Source of the DNA: Candidatus Ruthturnera sp. Tsphm01
GTDB lineage: Bacteria; Pseudomonadota; Gammaproteobacteria; PS1; Pseudothioglobaceae
Length of the DNA stretch: 64,000 nucleotides
Direction: 5' to 3'
NCBI GenBank assembly: GCA_030142985.1
Contig: CP125320.1
Location: 625,639 to 689,638 of the forward strand
Part shown: piece after piece, positions 32,016 through 39,039 of the stretch
Position numbering within the stretch: the first letter of the stretch is position 1
Layout: each line of letters starts with the position of its first letter
Translations under genes and position numbers: made by a program
The notes under the pieces: generated by a model
Databases searched by the model: none
Seen by the model: the letters and a program-made list of their open reading frames with translations, nothing else
What the model was told of the DNA's origin: nothing

Positions 32016-33695
32016 ATGCAAAGAAAAATTATGCACAACCCAAGAAAATACTCCTCACAAGTTGTTGATGGGTTTGAACGCGCACCAAGTCGCGCCATGC
32101 TTTATCCTGTTGGCTTTAAAAAAGAGGATTTTAACAAGCCTCAAGTTGGCATAGCAAGTACTTGGTCAATGGTAACACCATGTAATATGCACATTAATAA
32201 ATTGGCTGATGAGGCGTCAAAAGGAGTCAATGCTGCAGGTGGCAAAGCCGTTATTTTTAACACCATTACCATTTCAGACGGTATTTCTATGGGCTCTGAA
32301 GGCATGAAGTATTCTTTAGTCTCGCGTGAAGTCATTGCCGATTCAATTGAAACTGTTGTTGGTTGTCAAGGATTTGATGGCGTGGTTGCTATTGGTGGTT
32401 GTGATAAAAATATGCCTGGTTGTATTATCGGCTTGGCACGTCTTAACCGTCCTAGTATTTTTGTTTATGGCGGAACCATTCAACCTGGTAAAAACCATAC
32501 AGATGTGGTGAGTGTTTTTGAAGCAGTTGGCCAATTTGCCAACCATACAATCGATGCAATTGAATTGGAAAATATTGAAAAAACTGCCATCCCTGGTCCA
32601 GGTTCTTGTGGTGGCATGTACACAGCTAACACCATGGCATCAGCAATTGAAGCATTGGGCATGAGTTTGCCAAATTCTAGTGCGCAAGACGCTATTTCAG
32701 ATGACAAAAATAACGACTGCGTTCAAGCTGGACAAGCCGTCCTTAACTTATTAAACAAAGACATTAAACCTCGTGACATTATGACCATGAAAGCATTCGA
32801 GAATGCCATTACCGTGATTATTGCACTGGGTGGATCAACTAATGCTGTCTTGCATTTAATTGCCATGGCAAGTGCTGCTGGGGTTAATCTTAAAATTGAT
32901 GACTTTACCCGTATTGGCAAAAAAATACCTGTTATTGCCGACCTTAAACCATCAGGCAAATACATGATGAGTGAATTGGTTGAAATTGGCGGCACATTGC
33001 CATTAATGAAAATGCTACTTGACGCAGGACTATTACACGGAGACTGCCTAACAGTAACAGGTAAAACTCTAGTTGAGAACTTAGAAAACGTTAAACCATA
33101 TGCCGATTCCCAAGAAATTATTAGAACGTTAGACAATCCAATAAAAAAAGATTCACACCTTAGAATTTTACGTGGCAACCTTGCAACCGATGGTGCTGTA
33201 GCAAAAATCACTGGCAAAGAAGGTTTGAGTTTTAAAGGTAATGCAAAATGTTTTTCTCGCGAAGAAGATGCGCTTGAAGCCATCCTAAATAATCAAATAA
33301 CAGCAGGTGACGTTATCGTCATTCGCTATGAAGGCCCTGTCGGTGGTCCTGGTATGCGCGAAATGCTTGCCCCTACTTCTGCAGTTATGGGCAAAGGCTT
33401 AGGTGGCAAAGTTGCGTTAATTACCGATGGTCGCTTCTCTGGTGGTACACATGGCTTTGTAGTCGGCCACATCACCCCTGAAGCCTTTAAAGGTGGTGTA
33501 TTGGCTGTAGTTGAAGATGGCGATGAAATCTTAATAGATGCAAAAAACAACATTTTAGAATTGTTAGTTGAACAAACTATAATCGATAAACGCTTATCTA
33601 ATTGGACACAGCCTAAGCCAAACTACACCAAAGGTGTATTGGCTAAGTTTGCAAAGTTGGCTAAATCCGCCTCTGAAGGTGCAGTAACTGATTAG
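32016..33695 (+). CDS. ilvD: dihydroxy-acid dehydratase
   Basis: Fe-S enzyme giving 2-oxoisovalerate and 2-oxo-3-methylvalerate in valine/leucine/isoleucine synthesis. Cluster cysteines lie in [10 protein letters not shown] and [14 protein letters not shown], and the C-terminus has [12 protein letters not shown]. At 559 residues it is complete; an ATG five codons downstream is also possible. Its 2-oxoisovalerate product feeds PanB. Its 3' end faces the outer end of the integron cassette array. Confidence 0.97.
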
Positions 33696-33813: not shown

Positions 33814-33848
33814 ATCTAACGCCTTGCTCAGCGGACAATTTGTTAGGT
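33814..33848 (-). other. attC site of cassette 4 (short)
   Basis: Minus strand: R'' ACCTAAC and R' GTTAGAT both fit the RYYYAAC/GTTRRRY consensus perfectly, with GGC before the R' core. At 35 bp it is shorter than the ~57 bp usual minimum. The arm near R' still reads like the GCTGAGCAAGGC of other sites, but the opposite arm and the central stem are reduced, so an internal deletion is likely. It is the outer end of the array, next to ilvD. Confidence 0.75.
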
Positions 33849-33851
33849 GCT

Positions 33852-34465
33852 TTACACTGGTATCTCTAGTTGTAATAAAAGCCATATAGCAACTATTAAC
33901 AATGACCCAGAAAAAAAATAATTTAGTATTTTATCTATTGTTTTATTATCTGCCCACCTAGAGATATGATTGCCGGCAACAACCCAAATAAAATGAGTCG
34001 ATATATTTAATATTGCCAACATAATAACAAGAGCAGTAATCTGTGCATTATAATTAAAACTACCGTCAAGCAATGTGGAGAACATTAAAAATAACATTGC
34101 CCACCCTTTTGGGTTCAACATTTGCAATATAACCCCTTCTCTAAAGGTAAAGGTCTTTTTTATTAGAATCTATCTCTTTTTTGTCGATTCTTATAAATTT
34201 GTAGGCTAAATAGATAATATACAAAGAGCCAAGCAATTGAAGTATGAAAAATTAAGCTTGGATATAATTGCAATATTTCGCCCAAACCAAAACCTATCAA
34301 CAAGGAGTAAATAATAAAAACCAAATCAACTCCTATTATCAGTGGAATTGACCCTCTAACCCCTTGTTTTATTCCTGACATAGCAAAAACTATATTAGCT
34401 GGTCCAGGGCTAAATACTAAAGGAAACATTAAGCCAAAAAACAAAAGGAAATATTGAATATTCAT
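33852..34465 (-). pseudogene. LysE/RhtB-family amino-acid exporter, frameshifted
   Basis: Two frames together make a LysE-family permease. The N-terminal part (34163-34465) begins MNIQYFLLFFGLMFPLVFSP and has the PGPANIVFAMSGIKQGVRG signature. The C-terminal part (33852-34127 and upstream) has FREGVILQMLNPKGWAM, followed by three hydrophobic segments. The frames can be joined by two one-base shifts at two A6 tracts near 34159 and 34173, giving a continuous QKKEIDSNKKTFTF linker. It is therefore a recent pseudogene, a sequencing error or a slippage-dependent gene. It is the second gene of cassette 4, 37 bp after the carbonic anhydrase. Confidence 0.75.
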
Positions 34466-34502
34466 AAAACACCTTCATTGAAACATTTTTCAATGTTTAA
34501 CC

Positions 34503-35369
34503 CTAATTATCCTTAGAGATAAGGGCAGGATTTAGAACTAGATTTCTTACACCATGAGCATAATATTCATTGAAAACATTGCCTTTGCACCATTTACTAA
34601 CACTTTCTATATTAACTTTAGCCACATTAGGTCTTACACTCCATGTAACTTGAAATGGGGAGCCTTTTTCATTGTATTTAGGCCCTGTAGTTGAACCAGC
34701 ATACTGAACAGGCGCCCCTGTATTGTTTGGGATATTTATTGCTTGATCTAAATTATTCTTTTTTCCATATTTAGTTAAGTTAGCAAAGTCAAGGGCATTT
34801 TTATCATTTACAAGAACATACACTTGTGCTTCTACACGTAATTGGGGATTTTTAATGACGTCACTTAGGCATGAGTATAATGTCGGAGCCAGTTTTGTTT
34901 GGGCAGTTGAGTATACATAATGGACTTCAATAGTATCACCAGAACTTAAACTCCCGTGTTTACTAGGACAAATATCGTATCCTACAGGTTTAAGCTCCGA
35001 AGTGCTTAACTTGCCTGAATATTTATACCCAGTTTGGAATCCATTGCCATTGCCATTGCCTGCATATTTAGTATATTCACCACCTTTATGCTCAGCATTT
35101 TTATGGAAATGAATATCACAAAGATTCATTTGTGTAGATTCTGGTGCAATATTAAATGTCCGAGGATTGTTTCCCACTATTGCGTCAATATCAACAGGGG
35201 ATTGCGGACCAAATCCTTTGCCGTTTATATTCTCCGCAAGGCGAATTCTTTGTTCAGATATAACTTTATCCGAAACAGTTTTATATATATCATGATTACT
35301 TTCTTTTGCATTGGTATATATAGAAAATGACATTACTGTCACTAATGTGATAATTGCTTTTTTAATCAT
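34503..35369 (-). CDS. delta-class carbonic anhydrase-like protein, exported
   Basis: 288 residues. The N-terminus (MIKKAIITLVTVMSFSIYTNA) is a signal peptide, so the protein should be periplasmic. The body matches the delta-class (CA_like) family. CDIHFHKNAEHKGG near residue 83 holds candidate zinc-binding Cys/His residues, and ICPSKHGSLSSGDTIEVHYV and LRVEAQVYVLVND follow. Carbonic anhydrase interconverts CO2 and bicarbonate; in a carbon-fixing cell a periplasmic form could help inorganic carbon supply (inference). It is the first gene of integron cassette 4 and thus potentially acquired. The family call is from recall of motifs, not a search. Confidence 0.75.
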   Translation of the reverse strand: MIKKAIITLVTVMSFSIYTNAKESNHDIYKTVSDKVISEQRIRLAENINGKGFGPQSPVDIDAIVGNNPRTFNIAPESTQMNLCDIHFHKNAEHKGGEYTKYAGNGNGNGFQTGYKYSGKLSTSELKPVGYDICPSKHGSLSSGDTIEVHYVYSTAQTKLAPTLYSCLSDVIKNPQLRVEAQVYVLVNDKNALDFANLTKYGKKNNLDQAINIPNNTGAPVQYAGSTTGPKYNEKGSPFQVTWSVRPNVAKVNIESVSKWCKGNVFNEYYAHGVRNLVLNPALISKDN

Positions 35370-35424
35370 TTGCTTCTCCTAATAATTACCCTTGTTAAAA
35401 AAATATAAAAGTGTGAGGATTTCC

Positions 35425-35485
35425 ACCTAACGCCTCGCATCAGCGGCGCGGCTCTGCCGCGTCCGACTGCATGCGTTTGTTATAA
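35425..35485 (-). other. attC site of cassette 3
   Basis: 61 bp on the minus strand: R'' TTATAAC, R' GTTAGGT (perfect GTTRRRY). The central GC-rich stem GCGGCAGAGCCGC sits between the GCATGCAGTCGG and CCGCTGATGC arms. The R'' core overlaps the stop codon of the ABM gene. The site looks structurally complete. Confidence 0.88.
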
Positions 35486-35782
35486 GGCATTTTCAAATAC
35501 TTTTTCATAGTGTTCTACTGTTGGAAAAGGATCATAAAAATGATGCAACATTGCACGCCATTCCTGGTACTCGTCTGATTCTCGAAACCCCTTTGTATGA
35601 TCCTTTAGAGTTTGCCAATTAACCAATAAAATATATCTGTTGGGATTCTCTATGCATTTTTGTAGTTGATGTGAAATGTATCCATTCATGCTGGAAATTA
35701 TCTTCTGCGCTTTCTCGAACGCAGATTCAAATTCTGCCTCCTGTCCCGATTTAACATCAAGTATTGCTACTTCTAAAATCAA
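35480..35782 (-). CDS. ABM-domain protein (antibiotic biosynthesis monooxygenase-like)
   Basis: 100-residue ferredoxin-like fold protein: MILEVAILDVKSGQEAEFES at the N-terminus, then SMNGYISHQLQKCIENPNRY and WQTLKDHTKGFRESDEYQEW. Small ABM-domain proteins often act as dimeric monooxygenases or haem/quinone-binding proteins; the substrate here is unknown. The start is TTG at 35782 with GGAG six bases upstream. It is the only gene of integron cassette 3, and its stop lies within the attC, a common compact layout. Confidence 0.8.
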   Translation of the reverse strand: MILEVAILDVKSGQEAEFESAFEKAQKIISSMNGYISHQLQKCIENPNRYILLVNWQTLKDHTKGFRESDEYQEWRAMLHHFYDPFPTVEHYEKVFENAL

Positions 35783-35798
35783 TTGATTCTCCTATGCC

Positions 35799-35855
35799 TT
35801 ATAACGCTTGAATTCAGCCGACGCGTTAGCGGTCTGCTGCAATGATTTGTTATGG
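35799..35855 (-). other. attC site of cassette 2
   Basis: 57 bp on the minus strand from R'' CCATAAC to R' GTTATAA. The arms CATTGCAGCAGACCGC and GCGTCGGCTGAATTCAAGC pair imperfectly with a short TAAC tip, the textbook attC shape. R'' overlaps the stop of the YbjQ-like gene. Confidence 0.88.
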
Positions 35856-36152
35856 TTTTTCTTCAATTATCGCTGGTGTGCCAATATAAGTAACATAAAT
35901 AAAAGTTCCATTGTTAAATTGCTGTGATGATGTTGATATTTGAACACCTAAAATTGCATTTGCTTCATTTGGACAATTATTTACAAAAGCATTAATTACC
36001 TTTTGGTATTCATTTTTCTTTCCTTCTATCAACCCTCTAATAAATCCTTTTTTTGAAATTTCAACAATTCCAGTAGTTTGAACCATTCCAAATAGTTCTT
36101 TTACTATAATGTTTTCTGGTAAGTTTTCAGTTGTAAAAATGTATTTTTTCAT
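35850..36152 (-). CDS. YbjQ/UPF0145-like heavy-metal-binding-domain protein
   Basis: 100 residues. The order FGMVQTTGIVEIS, FIRGLIEGKKNEYQKVINAF and ANAILGVQISTSSQ, ending in TFIYVTYIGTPAI, matches the UPF0145 (YbjQ) family. That family forms pentameric rings of unknown function and is labelled heavy-metal-binding from distant similarity. It lacks the usual start motif of YbjQ, so it is a divergent member. It is the single gene of integron cassette 2. Confidence 0.7.
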   Translation of the reverse strand: MKKYIFTTENLPENIIVKELFGMVQTTGIVEISKKGFIRGLIEGKKNEYQKVINAFVNNCPNEANAILGVQISTSSQQFNNGTFIYVTYIGTPAIIEEKP

Positions 36153-36172
36153 TTATATCTCCGTTTTATAAA

Positions 36173-36271
36173 CCATAACGCCTGCTTCAGCGGCTGCCGT
36201 AAGGGGCGCGAATTTTGCAATAGAAAAATTTCGTGACGCTTACGGCAGTCAGCTGGAAGCAATTGTTAGTT
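36173..36271 (-). other. attC site of cassette 1 (long)
   Basis: 99 bp on the minus strand from R'' AACTAAC to R' GTTATGG. CTGCCGTAAGCG pairs with CCCTTACGGCAG around a ~35-base variable terminal structure. The outer arms TTGCTTCCAGC and GCTGAAGCAGGC pair as L''/L'. It has the longest central hairpin of the four sites. Confidence 0.85.
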
Positions 36272-36278
36272 GTAACAA

Positions 36279-36725
36279 TTACTGTACAACCAAGCTATAT
36301 GAAAAATACTCACTACCCTTCACGAAACCAATTTTCTCATAAAGAGCTTGGGCTGAAAAATTGTTTTTGGCTGTAGCCAGATCCACCCGAATTGAACCAG
36401 TACTTTTAGCCAAGCTTACAGAACTGTTAATTAATTTATTGGCTATACCTTGTTTTCGATGAGACTCAATAACAAATAAATCATTCAACACCAATACCTT
36501 TCCAAGAGAGACAGATGAAAATGAATGATAATTTAAAACAAAACCAACAGGTTCATTTGCTAAACTGTAAGCTATAAATACACTTGCATCGTTGTTTGAT
36601 AAACGCTCATGTAAATATTTACGATACTTATCAGGTGCCGATGGTTGTTTATAAAAAACCATATACTGATCAAAAAGTATGACTAAATCCTCTAGTTCTT
36701 CCGTTGAAATATTTTTTATATTCAT
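36279..36725 (-). CDS. GNAT-family N-acetyltransferase
   Basis: 148-residue acetyltransferase with VLVLNDLFVIESHRKQGIAN (acetyl-CoA-binding loop, about 78-98) and NNFSAQALYEKIGFVKG (motif B) near the C-terminus. GNAT proteins are among the most frequent integron cassette passengers, and some modify antibiotics, polyamines or proteins; the substrate is not predictable. It is the single gene of cassette 1, the one nearest the presumed entry end. Confidence 0.85.
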   Translation of the reverse strand: MNIKNISTEELEDLVILFDQYMVFYKQPSAPDKYRKYLHERLSNNDASVFIAYSLANEPVGFVLNYHSFSSVSLGKVLVLNDLFVIESHRKQGIANKLINSSVSLAKSTGSIRVDLATAKNNFSAQALYEKIGFVKGSEYFSYSLVVQ

Positions 36726-36771
36726 ATCTTCTCTTTTAATTTGTTACCAAAACCACGTGAACAACGCTTAC

Positions 36772-36778
36772 AACTAAC
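36772..36778 (-). other. entry-side core site of the cassette array
   Basis: Minus-strand GTTAGTT, continuing TGTAA, marks the first base of cassette 1 and repeats the complement of the R'' region of its attC for 11 bases. The sequence before it (ACTAATA) has no GCC/GGC arm, so this is not an attC. It is either an attI or a secondary insertion site. Between here and the rnr stop at 36922 I find only a palindrome (GTATAAGG with CCTTATAC, 36785-36808) and AT-rich DNA. Confidence 0.65.
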
Positions 36779-36921
36779 TATTAGTATAAGGACGTATTCC
36801 CTTATACACTCTATTAAAAATAAAAATATGTAAAAATAACGACTTTCACCTCTGTTTATAATAAAAAATATTACTACAAAAATTCAGTTCTTAATAGTTT
36901 TACTAGGCAAATTATAGTATC

Positions 36922-39039
36922 CTATTTAGCTGGCACAAATACCATCTGCCTATCGTCAAGATTAACAGAAGCGATTTGAATTTTGATGGTGTCACCTAGT
37001 TGATAAACTTTGCCAGTGCGTTCGCCTTTGAGTTGATGGTGAATGTCATCAAAAATATAATAGTCATCTTTCATGTCACGCATGGCAATCATGCCTTCGA
37101 CAAATACGTCGGTGAGCTCGATAAAGATACCAAAACCAGCAACGCCAGAAATAACACCATTAAAGGTATCGCCTACTTTGTCGCGCATGTATTCGCATTT
37201 TAGCCATTGTTCAACATCGCGTGAGGCATCGTCTGCTCGGCGCTCAGTCATGGATAAATGCGCACCAATTTCAAGCATTTTTTTGCTGGGTTTTCTGCTC
37301 TTTTTGTCTAAAACGCGTTTAATGGCGCGATGTACCAAAAGATCAGGATAGCGCCTGATGGGTGAAGTGAAGTGAGTATAGTCTTCAAATGCCAAGCCAA
37401 AGTGACCCTCGTTGGCAGGGGTGTAAACGGCTTGTTTCATGGTGCGTAAAACAACGGTTTTAATGATGTTTTCATCGTCTCTACCCTTGGCGTTTTCAAG
37501 CACTTTAGCAAAGTCTTTAGAGTCTGGTTGCGCGCCACCTTCAAGCGTTAAGCCAATGGCAGTTAAAAACTGGCGAGTGACTTCTACTTTTTCTGCTGTG
37601 GGTTTGGGATGAATTCGGTATAAAAAATCCTCATTATGATGGTTTAAAAATTTAGCACTTGATTGATTGGCCATTAACATGCATTCTTCAATCAGTTTGT
37701 GGGCATCGTTACGAGAGCGGGCAACAATATTGTTAATTTTGCCGTTATCATTAAATAAAATTTGTGATTCGATGCGATCAAAATCCATAACCCCGCGCTT
37801 AATTCTGGCGTGTTTAAGTGCTTTGTATAAGTCATACAGCGCATTTAAATTATCCATCACTGATGCGTATTGTTGAGTGAGGTCGACATCATGGTATTCT
37901 AAAATTTGGCTCACCTTGGTATAGGTTAATCGTGCGTGTGAGAACATAACAGCAGGATAAAACTTATAATCCAATAAATTTCCATGAGTATCAATATTCA
38001 TCTCACAAGTCATACACAAACGCTCAACATCAGGGTTAATCGAGCACAAACCGTTCGATAAAACCTCAGGCAACATTGGCACAACACGGCGTGGAAAATA
38101 CACCGAATTGCCACGATTTGTGGCGTCTTTGTCTAAGTCTGAGCCTTCTTTTACATAGTGCGATACATCGGCAATAGCAACAACCAATTTCCAGCCTTTA
38201 CTGGTGGCTTGTGCGTAAACAGCATCGTCAAAATCGCGAGAATCTTCACCATCAATCGTGACTAATTTCATTTTAGTGATGTCAATTCTACTTTTTTTAT
38301 CACTATCAATTACTGTGCTTGGTAATTTATCGGTTTGCACGAGTGCTTCGGGTGAAAAATCAACCGGAATGCCATTGCGATAAAGGGCAGAATCTGTTTC
38401 TACGCCTTCATCCATATAACTGCCTAAAATTTGTACAATTTCACCCACCGCTTGGCTTTTTAGGGTTGGGGATTTGGTGATTTTAACAATCACAATTTGC
38501 TCATCAAGATGCTCTTTATTAATCTTTGGAATGCTAATATTATGCTTAATACGCTTGTCGTCAACCACAACATAAGCCCCGTCTTTTTGAAGATGTAGGC
38601 GCCCTACTACAGTTTCAATACTTTTGATAACTTTAATAATTTGTGCATCACCGCGCTGGTTAAGAAGACGCGCTTTAACTCGGTCGCCATGAAAAACCAA
38701 TTGCATTTGCTTTGATGATAGCCTTAAATCTTTACCACCTTCATCCAATGCAATAAAACCAAAGCCTTTTGGATTGGCAATCACTGTGCCAGTCATCACC
38801 CCGCTTTTTGCGCTAAATTTATGATACACACCACGCTGATCACAATTTAGCTGCTGGTCACGAACCATGGCTTTAAGGCGGTGCGTTAAGGGTTTTTTTT
38901 GGTGATGGTCAATTGCCAACAAATCGCATAATTCATGTAATGTGTGTGATTTTTTTCCAAAAAAACTAAGGATATACTCCCTTGAAGAAATTGGGTTGTT
39001 GTATTTTTCTGACTCTCTTTTATGGTGGGGATCTGACAT
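36922..39039 (-). CDS. rnr: ribonuclease R
   Basis: 3'-5' hydrolytic exoribonuclease of the RNB family that degrades structured RNA. N-terminal helix-turn-helix and cold-shock domains precede the RNB domain with DGEDSRDFDDAVY (catalytic aspartates, about 255-267). FTSPIRRYPDLLVHRAIKR follows, then a C-terminal S1 domain (GDTFNGVISGVAGFGIFIEL). At 705 residues it lacks much of the E. coli basic tail (813). It ends the minus-strand hflK-hflC-hisZ-purA-rnr run; the cassette array begins 144 bp beyond its stop. Confidence 0.96.
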   Translation of the reverse strand: MSDPHHKRESEKYNNPISSREYILSFFGKKSHTLHELCDLLAIDHHQKKPLTHRLKAMVRDQQLNCDQRGVYHKFSAKSGVMTGTVIANPKGFGFIALDEGGKDLRLSSKQMQLVFHGDRVKARLLNQRGDAQIIKVIKSIETVVGRLHLQKDGAYVVVDDKRIKHNISIPKINKEHLDEQIVIVKITKSPTLKSQAVGEIVQILGSYMDEGVETDSALYRNGIPVDFSPEALVQTDKLPSTVIDSDKKSRIDITKMKLVTIDGEDSRDFDDAVYAQATSKGWKLVVAIADVSHYVKEGSDLDKDATNRGNSVYFPRRVVPMLPEVLSNGLCSINPDVERLCMTCEMNIDTHGNLLDYKFYPAVMFSHARLTYTKVSQILEYHDVDLTQQYASVMDNLNALYDLYKALKHARIKRGVMDFDRIESQILFNDNGKINNIVARSRNDAHKLIEECMLMANQSSAKFLNHHNEDFLYRIHPKPTAEKVEVTRQFLTAIGLTLEGGAQPDSKDFAKVLENAKGRDDENIIKTVVLRTMKQAVYTPANEGHFGLAFEDYTHFTSPIRRYPDLLVHRAIKRVLDKKSRKPSKKMLEIGAHLSMTERRADDASRDVEQWLKCEYMRDKVGDTFNGVISGVAGFGIFIELTDVFVEGMIAMRDMKDDYYIFDDIHHQLKGERTGKVYQLGDTIKIQIASVNLDDRQMVFVPAK

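Follow-up and report, generated by a model that had tools for sequence, protein, structure and literature searches.

A gene-cassette array behind rnr in Candidatus Ruthturnera begins at one of six attI copies and is likely served by a distant integron integrase

The window analyzed here is a stretch of 64,000 nucleotides (nt) from Candidatus Ruthturnera sp. Tsphm01 (C1:625639-689638 of the complete 1,523,273-bp chromosome), and its subject is an integron gene-cassette array situated between the genes rnr and ilvD. The array is best explained, with a probability of about 0.6, as an integron platform, consisting of an attI site and four cassettes with no integrase gene, that is headed by one of six attI copies on the chromosome and was likely loaded, and would still be served, in trans by an intact integron integrase (IntI) encoded 484 kb away. 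This explanation draws on the attI and attC sites, the six attI copies, the intact IntI reading frame, the chromosomal positions shared with relatives, and the stumps of intI found in those relatives.

Under the proposed mechanism, each platform would have begun as a copy of intI together with attI, and intI would later have been deleted at that place. The single remaining IntI would act in trans, recombining cassettes at the other attI copies, and this recombination would have turned over the cassette content of each site.

The cassette array and its attI element

Searches of the window with Rfam at the gathering threshold returned three tRNAs only, and a covariance model was therefore built from 10 attC sites of the lineage (R1). 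This model recovers four attC-like sites on the minus strand, three of them clear and one weak (Table 1), at the places where the original prediction, made from the window alone, had recognized four palindromes as attC sites. Other claims of that prediction were likewise borne out: exact complementarity of 8-12 bases between the start of each cassette and its own R'' is present in all four cassettes, and the open reading frames (ORFs) for GNAT, ABM and small unknown proteins lie on the minus strand. The attC sites carry R''/R' cores and fold, so that the features defining an integron gene-cassette array are found together. Most sites escaped detection when R'' and R' had to pair strictly within a single attC, since R' is part of the following cassette, and relaxed patterns were used instead.

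The 62 nt that head the array match four other places on the chromosome. Two of these are 91% identical over 56-57 nt, one adjoining intI and the other lying behind secG, and two further places are 91-94% identical over 32 nt. A fuzzy-pattern scan for attI proved too loose and was replaced by an ungapped match count, and a profile of 115 positions was made from 11 copies (R2). This profile finds six attI copies in the genome of the window (G000; other G numbers denote compared genomes), namely at intI, after secG, rnr (the window array), metH and nadE, and beside a transposase gene. The core at the end of all six is intact, reading CTAATAGTTA or TTAATAGTTA. Conservation across the copies stops at the crossover GTT (CTAATAGTT), and the sequence beyond it differs. 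The secG-site copy and the intI-linked attI do not differ over 109 nt, so spread or homogenization of the element is recent. In G000 and G011 the element occupies the canonical place of attI, with a divergent intI on one side and the first cassette on the other; in G035 it adjoins intI at the end of a contig.

The copies are also associated with attC sites. In G000, an attC lies within 4 kb downstream of four of the six copies. Across four complete chromosomes, a same-strand attC was found within 4 kb of 10 of the 15 attI copies; 20,000 random placements gave 0.15 on average and never more than 3. When the attCs used to train the model are omitted, the count is 6 of 15 (random mean 0.12, maximum 3).

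The integron integrase of the chromosome

Five PF00589 matches occur on the chromosome, one of which is an integron integrase. Its gene (C1:1146391-1147377) encodes an intact protein of 328 amino acids that scores 426 bits against TIGR02249 (cut-off 265), and the residues characteristic of tyrosine recombinases are in place. Next to it are an attI-like sequence and a single cassette with its attC, so that a complete integron, with intI adjoining attI, is found at C1:1146391-1147528 and is not found at the window array. The region near intI (L006:13286-14748) also holds a phage-type integrase gene (PF00589, PF22022), tRNA-Thr and transposase pieces, and is possibly an island.

The original prediction described a cassette array without a neighboring integrase, which agrees with the intact intI lying ~484 kb off. 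Applied to the whole genome, the term integrase-less would be wrong; since an intact intI is present on the same chromosome, this description is true only locally. The array had also been labeled a cluster of attC sites lacking an integrase (CALIN). The label stands insofar as at least two attC sites occur without an integrase gene nearby, and as a name for orphan attC clusters, which have no attI at the head, it falls short, since an attI copy of its own heads the array at 36884-36775. To our knowledge, standard tools recognize attI for only a few integron classes, so attI sites at integrase-less arrays can go unseen. The predicted reduced, possibly symbiotic lineage is consistent with the 1.0-1.6 Mb genomes of congeners and with close relatives of IntI, which are ~80-83% identical and are named Candidatus Ruthia and Candidatus Thioglobus. 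On the same basis, the chromosome is likely that of a deep-sea clam symbiont.

Distribution and origin of the copies

Profile matches at E 0.001 or better were counted across the family under strict filters, with which the counts may be low. The element is present in 18 of 83 genomes, representing 3 of 11 genera, and 11 genomes carry two or more copies: eight in G083, seven in G085, six in G000 and G035, five in G007 and G088, four in G011 and G031, and two in G006, G009 and G010. Four 1.0-Mb congeners (G001, G004, G005, G008) yielded no attI by profile and no attC match, G008 giving only a 19-nt BLAST match. An exact attI pattern searched against 84,980 species genomes, a set that perhaps excludes the genome of the window, occurs in five stretches of two genomes, those of Candidatus Thiodubiliella endoseptemdiera and one gammaproteobacterial metagenome-assembled genome.

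Many copies are situated immediately 3' of housekeeping genes. These are rnr in G000, G006, G011 and G031 (with a remnant in G003), nadE in G000, G002, G010 and G031, metH in G000 and G011, a DNA-repair gene (TIGR03623) in G006, G010 and G011, secG in G000, and htpG and leuS in G035; at a few copies the upstream gene reads in the opposite direction. The rnr and nadE positions are each found in two genera, although the nadE position in G031 may represent a separate insertion or a converted copy, judging from the copy tree. This tree was computed from 26 of the 32 copies, those with sequence in most columns. The nadE-site copies of one genus cluster, and the copies of G006 and G011 at the TIGR03623 site likewise form a group, whereas four from G035 fall with other copies of their own genus and not by site. 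The G031 copies at 440 kb and at nadE fall together, the secG copy of G000 groups with the intI-linked one, and the rnr-site copies are not resolved. Such a mixture of site-wise and genome-wise clusters points to older fixed platforms combined with recent spread within genomes.

Remnants of intI accompany several copies. Stumps of the 5' end of intI, ~39-84 codons long, precede attI in G031 (G031_440) and at three places in G035 (C56, leuS and C41), and intI remnants stand beside copies in G083 and G085. A mussel-symbiont record (L121) contains a near-complete intI frame broken by a shift. Two G035 copies (C56 and leuS) have a common left junction that lies outside intI, which indicates that a copy from which part of intI was already missing served as the source of a further copy. 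A 22-nt string left of the secG copy in G000 also occurs beside transposase pieces elsewhere in that genome, and one G031 copy (L128:3995-4111; G031:886042) directly follows an attC, as if attI stood in the position of a cassette.

Six genomes of other families with an integron integrase were scanned with a pattern for a second attI type, which turned up once in G048, twice in G057 and in none of the other four. The extra copy in the unrelated genome G057 (G057:C60:65814; L166 ~1501) lies apart from the intact intI and has a 5' stump of intI ahead of it, and the 342-bp stretch upstream of it matches the intI-linked region at 73% identity. At neither G057 site did the attC model return an attC, one of the stretches being just 1.6 kb long.

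Probable cassette turnover at the rnr site

The original prediction had proposed comparing the gap between rnr and ilvD in sister genomes. Among 19 relatives, in which ilvD was recognized by eye, four carry an attI element at this site (G003, G006, G011, G031), and 10 have ilvD as the next gene and no element in the 650 bases inspected (G001, G004, G005, G008, G009, G010, G012, G024, G030, G035). A different gene follows rnr in another four (G007, G014, G016, G021), and G002 was not resolved.

Just 38-84 nt separate rnr from attI in G000, G006 and G011, too little to hold intI, and the last 479 bases of rnr at its 3' end are 95% identical. No match to the window array, in DNA or in protein sequence, occurs behind attI in G006, G011, G003 or G031 (1.5-7 kb each). 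Given the lack of room for intI, the conserved rnr end and the unlike downstream content, the simplest reading would be that the cassettes at the rnr site changed after intI had gone from it. Alternatively, different cassettes may have been lost from a longer ancestral array, or the sites in G011 and G006 may have decayed.

Alternative explanations

Several observations weigh against loading in trans by IntI. The rnr-site attI of both G006 and G011 has an altered GTT core and no convincing attC, and the nadE and metH copies of G000 have no attC match within 4 kb. Turnover is not seen at every site, since G002 and G010 have the same gene behind their nadE-site copies. Over the 31-nt core, 340 of 368 positions are conserved in 12 copies from genomes without an intact native IntI, and 456 of 508 in 17 unlinked copies from genomes with one, in a set of copies picked by a profile that rewards the core. 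The core is thus equally conserved with and without IntI, and no decay signal ties the copies to a working integrase. G031 retains four G000-type copies despite having its own IntI, 48% identical to that of G000. A recA gene is present, so that copies or cassettes could have been moved by ordinary recombination as well. Finally, neither the rnr nor the intI copy has, on the cassette strand, a consensus sigma-70 match indicative of a Pc-type promoter.

Two candidate arguments were set aside during the analysis. One held that RecA is missing and that only IntI could hence spread copies, and it was rejected on the presence of recA; the other, that attI copies decay after the loss of IntI, was unsupported by the core comparison. 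The integrase of G031 mentioned above (L047:8595-9545) is the one integron integrase of that genome over the cut-off, and by eye a different attI-like sequence adjoins it.

The strongest competing explanation, which we consider unlikely, is that the platforms are relics: complete integrons would have been duplicated long ago and lost intI, after which attI and cassettes would only decay, with no action in trans. Core conservation that is independent of a native IntI accords with this account, as do the intI stumps of varied length beside copies in G035, G031, G083 and G085, the damaged cores at the rnr copies of G006 and G011, and the two attC-less copies in G000. However, old relics fit poorly with intact cores at all six G000 copies and with the 109-nt identity of the secG and intI-linked copies. 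Nor do they readily account for a site at rnr behind which nothing detectable is common to close relatives, or for a delta-carbonic anhydrase that, among 58 genomes searched, occurs in G000 only.

It is very improbable that IntI inserted the cassettes at ordinary attG sites, a non-classical integration described in other bacteria, with the upstream repeat being incidental. Such insertion, or decay of sites, could account for the 4 of 10 G000 attC matches that lie away from any attI copy (1289829, 1290533, 511525 and 612424, the last weak). Yet the window array starts exactly where the six-copy element ends, this element is homologous to the spacer between intI and the first cassette, and the upstream sequence copies the intI-linked attI, whereas an attG insertion point should be unlike attI and attC; in the cited part of the source, attG sites diverge from classical att sites (PMC12901181). 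Two of the attC sites away from attI lie together (L144:5830-6590; G000:C1:1289829-1290589) and are possibly attG-type or a decayed array.

There is equally little to recommend another kind of dispersed repeat (a miniature inverted-repeat transposable element, a terminator or a regulatory palindrome) that happens to precede cassettes: the element does contain inverted repeats and is often 3' of genes, but its place next to intI, the end of its conservation at the cassette crossover, the attC sites that follow 10 of 15 copies (six of 15 without the training attCs) and the intI start carried by several copies all oppose it.

The cassettes and their passengers

The features of the array are collected in Table 1. 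No attC match was found between the carbonic anhydrase gene and the split LysE-type gene (33852-34465), and both are placed in one cassette. The delta-carbonic anhydrase family is not rare overall, as at least 7861 of 7999 scored database candidates match it. Among the matches listed, the closest is 75% identical, and some are named delta-class and come from Cycloclasticus, Colwellia and a Bathymodiolus symbiont. By eye, the N-terminus of the protein encoded in the window appears signal-like.

Table 1. Position and support of the array features and flanking genes, numbered within the window.
Feature	Position	Strand	Support
rnr (ribonuclease R), upstream of the platform	36922..39039	-	TIGR02063 797 bits
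attI-like element, no intI adjoining	36775..36884	-	R2 profile (115 positions) 76.7 bits; crossover GTT at 36778-36776
Cassette 1, GNAT acetyltransferase ORF 36279-36725 and attC	36179..36777	-	PF00583 56.4 bits; start/R'' complement 11 bases
attC of cassette 1	36173..36271	-	R1 37.4 bits, E 8.5e-6; outside training set
Cassette 2, 100-amino-acid ORF 35850-36152, weakly YbjQ-like	35805..36178	-	PF23025 17.2 bits, below cut-off 29.1; start/R'' complement 10 bases
attC of cassette 2	35799..35855	-	R1 78.1 bits; member of training set
Cassette 3, ABM-domain ORF 35480-35782	35431..35804	-	PF03992 57.4 bits; start/R'' complement 12 bases
attC of cassette 3	35425..35485	-	R1 51.3 bits; member of training set
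Cassette 4, delta-carbonic anhydrase ORF 34503-35369, then LysE-type gene	33820..35430	-	PF10563 267.2 bits; start/R'' complement 8 bases
LysE-type gene of cassette 4, split in two frames	34163-34465 + 33852-34127	-	PF01810 37.7 bits (first piece); second piece no family match
attC of cassette 4, short, likely truncated	33814..33848	-	R1 21.7 bits, E 0.069; outside training set
ilvD, at the far end of the array	32016..33695	+	TIGR00110 740 bits

Relation to known systems and significance

The CALIN concept and the mobilization of such arrays in trans are established, according to the cited parts of two studies (PMC12444791, PMC9668308). Like a CALIN that is a pure attC cluster, the window array consists of cassettes delimited by attC without an adjacent integrase gene; it differs in having its own attI, in belonging to an attI-headed set and in sharing the chromosome with an intact intI. 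A parallel in this respect is the Shewanella prophage M16-3, in which, as far as the cited text describes it, a complete integron and a CALIN start with the same attI (PMC9892861). That genome likewise combines an attI-headed array lacking intI with a complete integron, but as described it involves one pair in one prophage, whereas up to eight copies per chromosome occur here, some at positions common to genera.

Other systems share single aspects. In Xanthomonas, intI lies next to ilvD, and CALINs at conserved chromosomal loci are said to be mobilizable in trans (PMC12444791); the cited part of that source reports no attI at them, whereas attI copies mark the shared positions here. The ilvD neighbor common to the Xanthomonas intI and the window array may be a coincidence. 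The Bathymodiolus septemdierum endosymbiont, from a related mussel-symbiont group, is listed with four CALINs and one In0 (PMC10295459, Table 1), and thus resembles the present case in pairing one integrase with several integrase-less arrays. The portion of that source used here gives IntegronFinder classes only and mentions no attI at the CALINs, unlike the attI-headed arrays of this study. Delta-attI-type cassettes, in which attI replaces the attC of a cassette, also place attI away from intI, as set out in the cited part of PMC12901181; here attI instead precedes chromosomal arrays, the G031 copy directly after an attC (G031:886042) being noted in this context. Among the matches listed in a search of titles and abstracts in open-licence PMC, none concerned scattered attI sets or integrons of vesicomyid symbionts.

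A broader reading, put forward tentatively and at somewhat less than even odds, is that of a distributed integron. One integrase would serve a scattered set of attI sites at fixed places behind housekeeping genes, and the small genome of a symbiont could exchange foreign genes at many loci in parallel. The docking module, attI with an intI stump, would spread within genomes, and would have done so in an unrelated lineage as well.

Cassette arrays without an integrase are common, and where they come from is often a matter of guesswork. The copies described here indicate that one platform was copied to many chromosomal places, where docking sites outlived the adjacent integrase genes, and loading in trans is therefore directly testable. 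If it occurs, it would provide reduced-genome symbionts with a route of gene capture, one passenger of which is a delta-class carbonic anhydrase.

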